The notes beneath the pieces were generated by a model. It saw only the letters and a program-made list of their open reading frames with translations. It searched no databases and was not told the origin of the DNA. DNA of 64,000 bases from Phragmites australis. Lineage: Eukaryota; Streptophyta; Magnoliopsida; Poales; Poaceae. The translations under genes were made by a program, and so were the position numbers. Shown piece after piece: positions 2,410-61,622 of this stretch; within the stretch, counting starts at the first letter, position 1, and each line of letters opens with the position of its first letter. The DNA is taken from NCBI RefSeq assembly GCF_958298935.1, contig NC_084923.1, forward strand, positions 28,674,501-28,738,500, written 5' to 3'.

Positions 2410-3173
2410 TTAGGCACCAACTTTTCTACGTGCCATCCCGTATGAAGCCGGGACGCAGCCACGGGTCACACAGAACAACTGGAGACCGATGAAGAGTAAG
2501 ATCAAAATCACGGCAACGCACCCGAGGAACTCGTTTGAGCCAAGGACGTGCGCTTTCATGAATTTCCTGATCGTCACCTTCCAACAGCTGTTGTAATGCT
2601 TGTTCGGGTCATCAATCACCTTATCCAACGCTGGCACCCTCGTCAGCCTCACCGATCTTGTCATGTCGTTCCACAGCTGGGCCACTTCTGGGTCGCTCTT
2701 GAGATGGTTCAAAATGATGCTGTACTCCCTCAGTAGCCGCGCATCCTCCTTAGTGTCGATGATCCCGTTCATCAACTCGATGTACCGAGCAAAGATCAGT
2801 GCACCGGAACCTACTGATGCCTCATACGCAACAATGTTTTGCAGCACAATCTCACTGTTGATGTCGATGCTGATCAGCGATAGGTGTGGCGTCCCAGTTG
2901 TTGAGGAGAAATCGATCAAGGAGATGTCACCGACCATTGGACAGAAGTGAAGACTAGCGTAAGCAAGCTTAGAACAAAAGGCACTGCAATCTCTTCAAGC
3001 AAAGGTGACACGTTCTTGTTCTGAACATCTGGTGCACCACTTTGTTCTGATCGAGAATCCATTGGTGGATTTTTAGACTCCATCTTAGAATGAGTCTTCT
3101 GCTTCAGCTTTTGAGGGTATAATAATCCAGAATTAGAAGTTGTAACGAAGAGACCCTTCACACTTATCACCAA
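2410..3173 (-). pseudogene. DUF247 (UPF0481) protein remnant
   Basis: Reading the minus strand, a 175-residue frame (2937 to 2410) resembles the C-terminal third of the plant DUF247 family. It has a conserved core with an N-I-V-A-Y-E motif, then a YIELMNGIIDT-type segment and an LLREYSIILNHLKSD-type segment. It ends with one hydrophobic helix (around CVAVILILLFIGLQLF), like the C-terminal membrane anchor usual in this family. Full members have about 400-550 residues. Upstream, the frame stays open only to a TGA at 2995-2997. The continuation towards the N terminus lies in another frame (to 3173), so a frameshift sits near 2970-2985. The N-terminal half is missing. Function of the family is mostly unknown; some grass members are linked to self-incompatibility. 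This copy looks dead. Confidence 0.65.
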
Positions 3174-28498: not shown

Positions 28499-28510
28499 GA
28501 ATTTTGCAGC

Positions 28511-30470
<1,960 letters not shown>

Positions 30471-32500: not shown

Positions 32501-33148
32501 TTACTGCTGCTCTTCCTCCACCATGTTGATCTCCGCGTGCGCCACCGCCACGCTACCGCACCCTGCGACGTTCACCACGCGGCACCGCTCCCCAGTCACG
32601 GCGCCGCAGCGGCTGACGTCGACGGCCCTGCACATCTCGACCTCGACGGTGCCGCACCAGTCGACGCGCGCGTCCTTGCACCGCTCCAGGCGCACCCCGC
32701 CGAAGCTCTCCACGTCGGCGCGCCTGCACCGCGCGGCCCGAACCCCGCCGCCTCCCCTGAGTCGCGCCTCTCTGCACCGCTCAAGGGTGACCTTACCAGC
32801 GTGCTCCACTTCCGCGGCGCGGCACCGAGAGACGGACACCTCCCGCGCCCCGTCCACCCGCGCCGTGCCGCACCGGTCGAAGGACACGGAGTCGATGCCT
32901 TCGGCGGCTGCGTCGGCGCAGAGCGTGAACCGCACGGCGCCACCGCCGCCGCCGCGGATGAGGACGCTCCGGAGGTTGTCAGCGGAGAGGTTGCCGGGGC
33001 TGGTGACGGTAACCGAGCCGCCGATGCTGCCGTGGAGCGTCCCCTCGTGGATGGACGCCTCGACGCCGTCGATGACGACGAGGAACAGGTGGTGGGCGGC
33101 GACGGCAGAGGTGGACTCGCCGGGGGCCTTGGCGTGGACGAGCGCCAT
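32501..33148 (-). CDS. 16-residue-repeat solenoid protein, unknown function
   Basis: An intact, intronless, GC-rich frame of 215 residues starting at a good ATG context (ACCGATGGCG, 33148) and ending TAA at 32501. Residues 72-215 are nine consecutive units of exactly 16 residues with the consensus VxLxRCxxAxVxxxGx: V at 1, R-C at 5-6, A at 9, V at 11, G at about 14. Units start at residues 72, 88, 104, 120, 136, 152, 168, 184 and 200, and the protein ends precisely at a unit boundary. The N-terminal 71 residues contain looser valine-rich units. There is no signal peptide or membrane helix. Alternating hydrophobic positions with a Cys ladder suggest a two-strand-per-turn beta-solenoid, perhaps akin to TBCC/CAP C-terminal folds; that is inference. 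I do not recognise a named family. No stops or frameshifts are seen, unlike everything around it. Confidence 0.75.
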   Translation of the reverse strand: MALVHAKAPGESTSAVAAHHLFLVVIDGVEASIHEGTLHGSIGGSVTVTSPGNLSADNLRSVLIRGGGGGAVRFTLCADAAAEGIDSVSFDRCGTARVDGAREVSVSRCRAAEVEHAGKVTLERCREARLRGGGGVRAARCRRADVESFGGVRLERCKDARVDWCGTVEVEMCRAVDVSRCGAVTGERCRVVNVAGCGSVAVAHAEINMVEEEQQ

Positions 33149-33264: not shown

Positions 33265-33273
33265 AAATAAATG
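33265..33273 (-). promoter_or_regulatory. Candidate TATA-like element of the solenoid gene
   Basis: The minus strand reads CATTTATTT here, about 120 bp upstream of the ATG. It is only a weak match to a plant TATA box, but it is the best one in the interval and would leave an untranslated leader of about 85-90 bases. Confidence 0.3.
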
Positions 33274-52879: not shown

Positions 52880-54752
52880 ATGGGAGACATTAGGTGCTAG
52901 ATAATGGATGCACTCAACACATGATCGAAAATCAAAGGATGTTCACTTCTTTGAGCAATGATGGATCGGAGTATGACAAAATCATGTTTGGAGATAATAG
53001 CAAAGGAAAGGTAAAGAGATTAGGTAAAATTACTACCTCAAATGATTTTTCTATCTCCAATGTTTTACTAGTTGAATCTCTAAATTTCAATTTGTTATCC
53101 GTTGCTCAACTATGTGATCTTGATCTTTCATGCACTTTTTCTCCAAATGATGTAATAATATCTAGCATGAAAGATAACAATGTAATTTTCAAAGGCTTTA
53201 GACATGATAATCTTTATCTAGTCGATTTCTCTTCTAATGATGCGAACCTAAGCACATGCTTGTTTACAAAGTCATCAAAAGGTTGGCTTTGGTATAGAAG
53301 GCTTGGTCATGTTAGTATAAATCAACTAAATCGTTTGTTAAAGCATGATCTAGTTGTAGGGTTGAAGGATGTAAAATTTGAGAAGAACAAGTTATGTAGT
53401 GCTTGTCAAGCCAAAAAGCAAGTGTGGAATTCACATCCATACAAAAGCTCCATATCAATTTCAAGACCTTTGAAATTATTACACATGGATTTATTTAGTC
53501 CTACTACATATGTTAGTATTGGAGGTAATAACTATTGTCTTGTCATTGTTGACGATTTTTCTAGATTTACTTGGGTGTTCTTTTTACATGATAAGACTAT
53601 TATATTTAACACCTTCAAAAGCTTTGCAAAAAGGGCTGAAAATGACTTTGAGTTCAAGGTCAAGAAAGTGAGAAGTGATAATGGCTCCGAATTTAAGAAC
53701 ACTAAGGTTGAGGATTTTTGTGAAGAAAAGGGTATCAAGAATGAATTCTTTGCCAAATATACTCTAAAGAAAAATAGAGTAGTTGAAAGGAAGAATCGGA
53801 CTTTAATGATATGGCAAGATCAATGATTTCAGAATGTAATGTTTCGGATAATTTTTAGGCCGAAGCTATCAATACCGGTTGCCATTCATCAAATAAATTA
53901 TATTGTCACGATTATTGAAAAAAACTCCATATGAACTTCTTATTGGAAGAAAACCAAACATCTCATATTTTCGGGTATTCGGATGCAAATGCTATATTCT
54001 AAAGAAAGGTACTTGTTTATCAAAATTCCAAAGAAAATATGATGAAGGTTTTTTATTTGGTTATTCTTCTAATAGTAAAGCTTATCGTGTCTACAACCAA
54101 AATTCTGGTTTGGTTGAAGAGACACGTGATGTTGAATTTGATGAAACTAATGGCTCTCAAGAAAATCAAGAAAATTTGGATGATGTAGGTAATAAATGTT
54201 TGAGAAGTGCTATCAAGAATATGTCAATAGATGACATCAAGCCAAAAGAGAAAGATAAACAAGAGGATGATCCATCTACCTCAATTAAGGCTATTCCAAC
54301 TTCTTCCACTACAAATGATCAAGTTCAAGCTCATAATGTGGAAGACATGGATAATCAATTACAAGAAGCTACCACTTCAGTAACTCCATCACAAGTGCCG
54401 GTAGTTCATTCAAAAATTCACCATACCATTGCCAAGGATCATCCCATTGATCAAATTGTTGGTGACCTTAGTAAGGGTATTCAAACTCGTTCTCGTATTG
54501 CTTCATTTTGTGAACACTATTCTTTTGTATCTTCTATTGAGCCTAACCATATAAAAGAAACTCTAAATGATCCAGATTGGGTGAATGCAATGCATGAAGA
54601 GTTAAACAACTTCACCTGCAATGATATATGTGAACTGGTAGAAAGACCAAGATATCATATTGTGATTGGCACAAAATGGGTTTTTTTCATAATAAGCAAG
54701 ATGAAGATAGAATTATTGTGAGAAACAAAGTAAGATTGGTTGCACAAGGATA
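52880..54752 (+). pseudogene. Sirevirus pol: protease, integrase and start of RT
   Basis: An open 310-residue piece (52894-53826) carries the protease site as D-N-G-C where D-S-G-C is usual, then the integrase zinc-binding part (RRLGH...CSACQAKK) and the catalytic core (HMDLF with the first Asp, VDDFSRFTWVF, RSDNGSEFKN with the second Asp, VVERKNRTL with the Glu). A frameshift near 53805 and a stop in DNF-stop-AEA follow. The frame resumes at 53903-54721 (LLKKTPYELLIGRKPN, FRVFGCKCY) and enters RT (DPDWVNAMHEEL, IGTKWVF). An extra T in a T-run near 54685 shifts the frame just before the Angela insertion. Confidence 0.8.
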
Positions 54753-58682: not shown

Positions 58683-59945
58683 GGGACTGAAAAGGACTAG
58701 GAAGTATGCGAGAGGCGAGATGGATGCTCATGTCGGCAATGGTGGAAAAGTTGTTGCATTGGCAGTCCGTCTTTATTCCTTATCGCTACCCTCAGGATTA
58801 GTTTTGGAATTAAATAACTATTATTACATTCCTGCCTTGGGCAAAAACATTATCTCTTCTTCATGTTTGGAAGAAGATGGATATGATGTCATAATCAAGA
58901 AGAAGTGTTGTTTGATTTATTTGAATGGTATGCTCTATGACAATTGTCCATTGGCGAATGGATTATATATTCTAGATCTTGAGGATGTCCCTATCTATAA
59001 CATTAATACAAAGAAGCCTCGGCTTAATGCTTTGAACCCACTTTTATTTGGTATTGTCCCTTAGGTCATATAAATGAGAAACGCATGCAGAGGCTCCATA
59101 AAGACGGTCTACTTGATTCATTTGATTTTGAATCATTTGATACATGTAAATTTTGTTTACTTGGCAAGACAACTAAGGCGCCTTTCACCTATCAAGGAGA
59201 GAGGTCAAGTGAGTTGTTAGCCCTTGTACATACTGATGTATGTGGACCAATGAGCTCTATTGCTAGAGGTGGTTTTCAGTACTTCATTACTTTTACCTAT
59301 GCCTTTAGTGAATATGGTTACATCTACCTAATGAGGCACAAGTTTGAGTCCTTTGAAAAGTTCAAGGAGTTTCAAAATGAAGCACAAAATCAAGATAATT
59401 AAATTTCTGTGATCTGATTGTTGAGGTGAATATTTGAGCCCAGAGTTTGGTGATCATCTAAGTAATGTGGAATTGTTCCACAGTTGACTCCATCGGGGAC
59501 GCCTCAATGGAATGGAGTGTCCGAATGGAGGAACCAGACTTTGTTGGATATGGTCTGGTCCATGATGAGCCAATCAGATCTTCCATTATCCTTCTGGGGA
59601 TACGCTCTAAAAACTGTTGCATCCACTTTAAATAGGGTTCCATCTAAACCTGTAGAGAAGACACCATATGAGATATGGATCGGGAAGCATCGCGGGTTGT
59701 CTTTCCTTAAGATCTGGGGTTGTGAGACCCATGTAAAACCTTTGACATCAGATAAGCTCACTCCCAAATCAGATAAATGCATCTTTGTGGGGTATCATGG
59801 GGAAACCAAAGGATATTACTTTTATAACCGAGAAGAGGACAAAGTGTTTGTCGCCTGGAACGGTGCTTTTCTGGAGAAAGAGTTTCTCTTAAGGAACATC
59901 AATGGGAGCATGATGCAACTCAAAGAGATTCGGGAACCATCATAA
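58600..59945 (+). pseudogene. Angela-type protease and integrase, broken
   Basis: The protease active site reads SWVFDTRS: D-T-G has become D-T-R, which would abolish activity. A stop falls a few codons later (58681-58683). The 114-residue piece 58720-59064 is the rest of the protease and the spacer. The integrase has a CKFCLLGKTTKAPF zinc part, a first-Asp block HTDVCGPMS, then stops and frameshifts where the second-Asp block should be (59400-59470). The C-terminal core is readable (TPSGTPQWNGVSE, LLDMVWSMMSQSDLPLSFWG; open piece 59484-59945) and ends with KPLTSDKLTPKSDKCIFVGY. Confidence 0.85.
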
Positions 59946-59976
59946 ATAAAGTGTTTCAGCTCCTATTGAACCACAA

Positions 59977-61622
59977 TTGGATGTTGTAGAACATGTTGTG
60001 GAGACACCAGCCCTACGACGGTCGGAAAGGATCAGTCACACACCTGAGAGGTTTATATTCCTAACCACAGAGCAGTGCAATATATTATTGTTGGACAATG
60101 ATGAACCTAAGACCTACTCAGAAACGGTGGTGAGACCAGACTCTGAGAGACGGCTTGAAGCCATGAGATCCGAGATATAATCCATGCACGATAATCAAGT
60201 TTGGAACTTGGTTGATCAACCTGATGGTGTCAAAGCAGTTGAGTGAAAATGGATTTTTAAGAAAAAGATAGACGTTGATGGAAATGTTCACATCTATAAG
60301 GCACAATTGGTGGCAAAAGGTTTCAGGTAGATTCAAGATGTTGATTATGATGAAACATTTTCGTCTGTCGCAATGCTAAAGTCTATCCAGATCATCCTAG
60401 CAATTACCGTATATTATGACTATGAGGTATGGTCGATAGATGTCAAAATGGCTTCCCTTAATGGAAACCTAAGTGAGGATGTGTATATGACACAGCCTGA
60501 AGGTTTTGTCGATCCAAAAAATGCTAGGAAGATATGCAAGTTGCAAAAGTCCATCTATGGGCTGAAGCAAGCTTCTCGGAGTTGGAATCTTCGATTTGAT
60601 GAGGTGGTCAATGGGTTTGGTTTTATGAAGAGCCTTTGTGTTTACAAAATGGCTAGTGGGAGCGCACTTGTGTTTCTGGTCCTGTATGTAGATGATATAT
60701 TATTGATCGGGAATGATATTAAGATGCTTGATGCTGTCAAATCTTCGTTGCAAAAAAGTTTTTCAATGAAAGATCTAGTAGAGGCAGCATACATATTGGG
60801 CATAAAGTCTATAGAGATAGGTCGAGAAGGCTGATTGGATTAAGCCAGAGTACATACATCGAAAAGGTATTGAAAAGGTTCAATATGCAGGATTCCAAAA
60901 GGGTTTCTTGCTGATGTCACATGGCATCACTCTTAGCAACCTTCGGTGTCCTTCGACCACTGATGAGCTTGAGAAAATGAGTGTGATCCCGTATGCTTCT
61001 GCTATTGGATCCATCATGTATGCCATGTTTTGTATACGCCTAGATGTATCCTATGCTCTAAGTGTTACGAGTACATACCAATCAAACATGGGTGAAGCTC
61101 ACCAGGTGAAGCTCACTTGTTGTAAATGGTTACTCTGATGCTAGCTTCCAAACCGACAAGGATGATTCGAGATTGCAATCTGGTTTTGTGTTTTGCCTCA
61201 ATGGAGGAGCAGTGAGTTGGAAGAGTTCCAAGCAAGAAATGGTGGACAATTCCACGACAGAAGCCAAGTATATCGCAGCTTCTGAAGTTGCAAAGGAGGC
61301 TATTTGGTTCATAATGTTTGTTTCTGAGTTAGGTGTGGTGCCTAGTACTACTAGTCCAGTGGATCTCTATTGTGATAATAGTGGATCCATTGCGCAAGCC
61401 AAAGAACCTAAGCCGCATCAGAAGTCCACACACATACTACGGCGCTATCACCTTATTTGAGAGATTTTAGATTGAGGTGACGTGAAGATATGCAAGGTGC
61501 ACATGGATTTGAATATTTCTGAACCGTTGACAAAGCCACTCCTGCGGCCAAAGCATGAGGCGCACATGAGAGCTATGGGTATTAGATACTTACATGATTT
61601 GACTCTAGTACAAATGGAAGAT
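59977..61622 (+). pseudogene. Angela-type reverse transcriptase and RNase H, broken
   Basis: RT blocks in order: RRSERISHTPERF spacer, QVWNLVDQP, a KWIFKKKID block after a stop at 60244, LVAKGF, then an open 153-residue piece (60373-60834) with VWSIDVKMASLNGNLSEDVYM, SIYGLKQASRSWN and the catalytic FLVLYVDDILLIGND. YVDD is intact. A frameshift follows at about 60830. Near 61080-61110 about thirty codons between the RT thumb (GEAH) and RNase H are deleted, at a GGTGAAGCTCAC direct repeat. RNase H is readable to TEAKYIAASEVAKEAIW and YCDNSGSIAQAK. The frame ends at a TGA just before the 3' LTR. AAATGGAAGAT (61611-61622) serves as the polypurine tract. Confidence 0.85.

Follow-up and report, generated by a model that had tools for sequence, protein, structure and literature searches.

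A conserved grass gene with a 16-residue repeat period

The 64,000-nucleotide stretch of the Phragmites australis genome analysed here (contig NC_084923.1, positions 28,674,501 to 28,738,500; hereafter the window) contains, at positions 32501-33148 on the minus strand, what looks like a genuine protein-coding gene consisting of a single open reading frame (ORF) and conserved in grasses as far as seen. Its product is confidently predicted to form a parallel beta-solenoid of about ten coils, in which each coil from residue 72 onwards comprises 16 residues and two short strands. The ORF runs from ATG to stop and encodes 215 amino acids (aa), in agreement with an earlier note on this DNA that had proposed an intact gene here; the plus strand over the same positions is likewise stop-free.

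Residues 72-215 divide without gaps into nine frames of 16 residues (72-87 to 200-215), as had been described before. Identity at a lag of 16 was found for 47 of 122 residue pairs within residues 71-208, a number reached by none of 2000 shuffles; a lag of 8 gives 24 matches, a weaker signal that a fraction of 0.001 of the shuffles attain. All 11 cysteines of the protein stand either at position 6 of a unit (residues 77, 93, 109, 125, 141, 157, 173 and 189) or at position 14 (residues 165, 181 and 197). When 11 cysteines were placed at random, eight or more fell into one class modulo 16 in none of 200,000 trials, and such a column arose at any period from 8 to 30 in none of 20,000. The earlier note had counted position 6 cysteines in seven of the first eight units; the column is there, but it fills all eight, and the arginine-cysteine context ascribed to it holds in six of these units and not in the other two. 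The period test and the predicted strands thus delimit eight regular units with two Cys columns, residues 72-199 (32552-32935, minus strand). The supposed ninth unit, residues 200-215 (32504-32551, minus strand), holds the last predicted strands (199-203 and 206-209), followed by a low-confidence, partly disordered tail with the residues EEEQQ. Since the predicted strands end at residue 209, and since Setaria P0002 and several other relatives run past unit nine with longer tails, the stop codon at the exact end of this unit is a coincidence.

Family, clades and duplication

Three protein searches revealed 26 database entries as homologues, each entry being a cluster at 90% identity. Two of these searches compared the query with no more than about 8000 candidates, those with the most words in common, so that relatives outside the grasses may exist. 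Thirteen of them show an organism, namely Setaria, Oryza (two), Eleusine (two), Triticum, Festuca, Zea, Brachypodium, Leersia, Hordeum, Alopecurus and Miscanthus, all of which are grasses; the other 13 show none. The homologues include matches over nearly the full length, and the entry from Setaria viridis (P0002) has 79% identity over 100% of the query. Grass homologues carrying the 16-residue pattern, which the earlier note had wished to see, were found by protein search. The database names shown for them do not go beyond "hypothetical", "uncharacterized", "unnamed" or "Right handed beta helix domain-containing", and no paper on the family was recognised in literature listings of open-licence PubMed Central (PMC) articles.

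As far as seen, the sequences suggest a family of two sister clades that is restricted to grasses. A tree of 17 rows separates clade A (8 rows including the window protein, 100/100) from clade B (9 rows, 100/100), with the forks inside both clades mostly open. This genome, Oryza and Eleusine are represented in both clades. A search of the DNA found at least two copies in this genome, the B copy lying about 37 kb from the A copy on the same contig and strand, and in Eleusine the two clades carry consecutive locus tags, ga10249 (B) and ga10250 (A). The simplest reading would be a tandem duplication predating the split of the rice and Eleusine lineages, an old event because both clades occur in all three of these grasses. 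The tree rows of Pooideae (Triticum, Festuca, Brachypodium) all belong to clade B, and the rows of Hordeum and Alopecurus look B-like.

Positional conservation was read from an alignment of 13 rows (A4) that includes 12 of 22 database proteins; P0024-P0027 were not aligned. Outside A4 are P0005-P0008, P0010 and P0019-P0023, which by eye are frame-broken, rearranged or fragmentary, and also L002. Position 6 is Cys in 12 of 12 A4 rows with letters in units 1 and 3 and in all 13 rows in each of the remaining six, frame-broken rows being left out, and the B paralogue of this genome, which is outside A4, has it in eight of eight units. The Cys at position 14 of units 6-8 is present in all 13 A4 rows, whereas the Cys pattern is absent from the out-of-frame parts of the rows left out. 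A segment of P0009 aligned to units 1-3 is probably non-homologous, so its letters there were given no weight. The perfect period noted earlier describes the window protein, which is gapless, but not clade B: in each of the eight B-clade rows taken from the database unit 4 is longer by one residue, and some rows hold further extra residues. In maize, the clade B protein P0017 is without about one coil (16-17 residues) near unit 3 when compared with P0012 and P0014, either through natural repeat loss or through a gap in the gene model.

Purifying selection and the opposite strand

The gene is under purifying selection. For the A/B paralogue pair (207 codons) the codon model of Goldman and Yang (GY94, F3x4) gave a ratio of nonsynonymous to synonymous substitution rates (dN/dS, omega) of 0.077, with twice the difference in log-likelihood (2 x delta lnL) at 64.9 against omega 1; the same test on the repeat region alone gave 62.8. 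Omega was above 1 in the other two sense frames and in all but one of the three antisense frames, any stop codons having been taken out. The selection that the earlier note had expected across orthologues is thus seen for this one pair of paralogues.

Some of the data weigh against this picture. The divergence of the single pair on which omega rests is saturated, so that the GY94 value is rough, and the method of Nei and Gojobori (NG86) gives dN 0.365 and dS 0.606, a ratio of 0.60. The clade A entries P0005, P0006 (rice OsJ_11436), P0007 (Eleusine ga10250) and P0008 go out of frame part-way, which could reflect faulty gene models, errors in the sequence or, in some grasses, a decaying A gene. 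Moreover, the two paralogues share a stop-free antisense frame (omega 0.19; 2 x delta lnL 49.6), which speaks for a spurious or dead ORF or for a true gene on the opposite strand. We consider this reading exceedingly improbable. The antisense ORF is nearly without ATG (0 of 230 codons in the window; 1 of 233 in the paralogue, at codon index 223, near the end), and the sense frame has the lower omega, homologues in the databases and confident fold models; the antisense signal is discounted because of this near lack of ATG and the stronger signal in the sense frame.

Predicted fold and coil anatomy

The AlphaFold2 (AF2) model of clade A (13 rows) has a mean predicted local distance difference test score (pLDDT) of 89.4, a predicted template modelling score (pTM) of 0.82 and 18 strand elements, with a strand spacing of 16 residues from residue 71. 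Clade B, modelled from its own alignment (8 rows), is likewise a beta-solenoid (pLDDT 83.7, pTM 0.76). These confident models of both clades place the strands where a solenoid of two strands per turn had been proposed from the sequence. Residue 72, at which the repeats of the earlier note begin, is the start of the regular units, but predicted strands occur already from residue 22. Residues 22-70 (32939-33085, minus strand) form a putative N-terminal cap, recognised by predicted strands and by conservation, with the first, less regular strands (22-26, 29-33, 37-39, 45-50, 53-57 and 61-65) and a mostly conserved FxVVxDGxE stretch. The N-terminus, residues 1-17 (33098-33148, minus strand), is predicted to be disordered (pLDDT < 50).

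The stacked Cys column of the earlier note is present in the repeat frame and in the predicted coils; that its side chains point inwards is, like the salt bridges and the handedness of the coils, inferred, which tells against the structural details given here. So does the merging of some neighbouring strands by DSSP (the B model has a run of residues 89-144), by which the turns are not all resolved in the models. The coils are probably right-handed, by analogy with many of the best-superposing beta-helix rows (root-mean-square deviation about 3 A), which belong to the right-handed class.

Over units 1-8 of A4 the commonest residues are V1 (69%), R5 (87%), C6 (100%), R7 (55%), A9 (77%), V11 (63%), C14 (52%) and G15 (78%); conservation is lowest at positions 2, 4, 8 and 16. 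Through units 2-7, column 10 runs R, E/D, R, D, R, D, apart from an N, a C and an H that each occur in a single row. Given three arginines and three acids, strict alternation has a chance of one in ten by arithmetic, and a ladder of salt bridges between rungs is therefore only a suggestion. In both clades (alignments of 16 and 13 rows) W164, C165 and G166 show no variation and D163 is nearly invariant. The tryptophan departs from the logic of the repeat, and the W164-C165-G166 turn is likely a functional site; D-W-C-G at residues 163-166 (32651-32662, minus strand) is accordingly marked as a candidate binding site by its invariance. As a separate observation, the C-termini of clade B (most of P0011-P0018, and L002) form a disordered tail with a common end of roughly AEPVxAxPxEIxSK. 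This end was not seen in clade A rows and might be a short binding motif.

Relation to known folds

No gathering cut-off in Pfam was reached by the window protein, and Beta_helix and pectate-lyase-like models gave no match, neither for the window protein (E up to 10) nor for 13 members of the family (E up to 1). Fibrinogen_BP (PF08017) matched the window protein with E 0.00051 and 18.9 bits against a cut-off of 50, and 7 of the 13 members with a best E of 0.00038; membership was rejected as below the cut-off, and we read the match as an effect of repeat composition. Neither sequence comparison nor Foldseek gave a close match in the PDB, the best 50 of 185 Foldseek rows having E of at least 0.058, a template modelling (TM) score of at most 0.36 and 4-14% identity.

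Cysteine ladders and 16-residue solenoids are each known; eight unbroken rungs across a grass family were not met in the literature listings. InlJ, by its title a leucine-rich-repeat protein with a "novel cysteine ladder", reportedly stacks Cys through successive repeats, an arrangement alike in its stacking but unlike the two-strand beta-solenoid predicted here. The fucoidan lyase FdlA has a ladder of five Cys on successive coils of a beta-helix, which is called unusual in the available excerpt of its description (PMC9410043). As far as that excerpt goes, FdlA resembles our family in stacking Cys inside a beta-helix and differs from it in being an enzyme with five Cys, compared with the eight unbroken Cys and the second column that a whole family of small proteins conserves here.

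Proposed role and its alternatives

On balance we lean towards a non-enzymatic binding scaffold, probably intracellular, in which the Cys columns brace the coils and a partner is held at the Arg edge and/or the W-C-G turn. The interior would be packed by Val or Ala at positions 1, 3, 9 and 11 and, at positions 6 and 14, by Cys or in its place Ala, Gly, Val or Phe; the Cys would stack as eight rungs without a break at the first turn and as a partial column at the opposite turn, bracing the coils. The partner could be a protein or an anionic ligand, and it might sit on the edge where Arg at unit positions 5 and 7 flanks the Cys column, at the D-W-C-G turn, or at both. That the scaffold is non-enzymatic is concluded from the lack of enzyme-type loops and of an enzyme profile. 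Several points speak against this proposal. The role is an inference from elimination and surface conservation. The B rows are basic (isoelectric point 8.2-9.3 in 8 of 8), compared with 5.6-6.8 in the four A rows whose N-terminus is complete, so that a common polyanion ligand is not assured. The location is uncertain as well, since residues 15-26 are as hydrophobic as might be expected of a signal sequence: the Kyte-Doolittle mean is 2.21 for these residues in the window protein and 2.02 for residues 26-37 of P0004, compared with 0.8-1.5 at the N-terminus of most relatives. In the AF2 model residues 15-26 are largely the first predicted strand.

The strongest rival to the scaffold is a thiol-active solenoid, a buffer or sensor whose Cys columns bind soft metal ions or switch by disulfides from rung to rung. 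We regard it as unlikely, though well ahead of the other alternatives. It would account for the absence of any exception at Cys6, and for Cys14 of units 6-8, in the aligned rows: A, G, V, I and F take other rungs of position 14, but position 6 admits none of them, a stricter rule than packing seems to require. Position 6 may, however, be a tight corner accepting Cys alone, and no metal motif of the CxxC type was seen in the alignments by eye. The five-Cys ladder of the fucoidan lyase is, moreover, called structural by its authors in the excerpt available (PMC9410043). A bolder form of the idea, which we hold to be improbable, is a grass-specific thiol stack, in which Arg-flanked parallel Cys columns (8 + 3-5) form a soft-metal or redox-switchable rod whose neighbouring rungs, by analogy about 4.8 A apart per coil, could be locked by disulfides; no counterpart was met in the literature listings. 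If the thiols were active, this would be a new way of holding metals or sensing the redox state.

The remaining alternatives tie the protein to known solenoids. A cytoskeletal solenoid of the CAP-C/TBCC type, an actin or tubulin factor, is highly doubtful. The C-terminal domain of CAP and the TBCC domain are short-coil beta-helices with Cys near the turns, but no TBCC or CAP_C profile is among those listed for the protein up to E 10. Their structural match to the model is weak, and the likeness drawn in the earlier note stays an analogy. A right-handed beta-helix active on polysaccharides, of the pectate lyase, polygalacturonase or epimerase type, is very unlikely in view of the Foldseek values given above and of 16-residue coils without long loops that reach no beta-helix or enzyme model in Pfam at E up to 10. 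Right-handed beta-helices such as AlgE4 (2pyg), the polygalacturonases and the antifreeze protein 3p4g differ from the two-strand coils here in this respect, and they have Asn ladders or aliphatic stacks instead of Cys columns. Extremely unlikely, finally, is a protein that binds ice or inhibits its recrystallisation, comparable to bacterial ice-nucleation or grass antifreeze proteins. There is a single TxT (residue 47, outside the repeats) and no SLT, YGS or NxVxG; positions 2, 4, 8, 12 and 16 are variable and often charged, leaving no flat Thr face, and many polysaccharide enzymes tie with 3p4g in the structure match. Bacterial and fungal ice-nucleation proteins likewise have 16 residues per coil (PMC12978214, available excerpt), but the protein described here has eight regular coils and not tens, and no TxT/SLT/YGS columns; its Cys occur in every regular coil, whereas those of the fungal proteins lie near the solenoid ends.

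This is a conserved cereal gene family, and it offers a natural beta-solenoid that is compact and keeps to its Cys column with unusual strictness. The coil could serve as a template in repeat-protein design, and the function is directly testable in rice or Brachypodium.

Surroundings of the gene

Upstream of the clade A gene (32501-33148, minus strand; 215 aa and stop), which is identified by its homologues and by purifying selection, the heptamer TTTATTT (33265-33271, minus strand), about 117 bases 5' of the ATG, was read from the sequence as a possible weak, unproven TATA-like element; the B paralogue has TTTATAA about 105 bases 5' of its ATG. A scan for bacterial promoters and terminators was uninformative for a plant gene.

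The gene had been called the sole undamaged frame among dead transposons. This is roughly right, but the region does not consist of transposons alone, since a 175-aa ORF at 2410-2937 (minus strand) matches DUF247 over the C-terminal portion of the profile (257-400 of 401, E 7.2e-32) in a Pfam scan that covered 10 of the 21 other listed ORFs of at least 120 aa. It is either a fragment of a gene or one piece of a gene that is damaged or split. Retrotransposon pol fragments, copia-type in our own reading, lie on the plus strand at 52894-54721 and 59484-60834 over separate ORFs (gag_pre-integrs, rve, SH3_retrovirus, RVT_2). A 129-aa ORF at 28504-28893 (plus strand) contains NKIGQGGFGLVY and has no Pfam match at 0.001; by eye it looks like the juxtamembrane part and the start of a receptor-like kinase.
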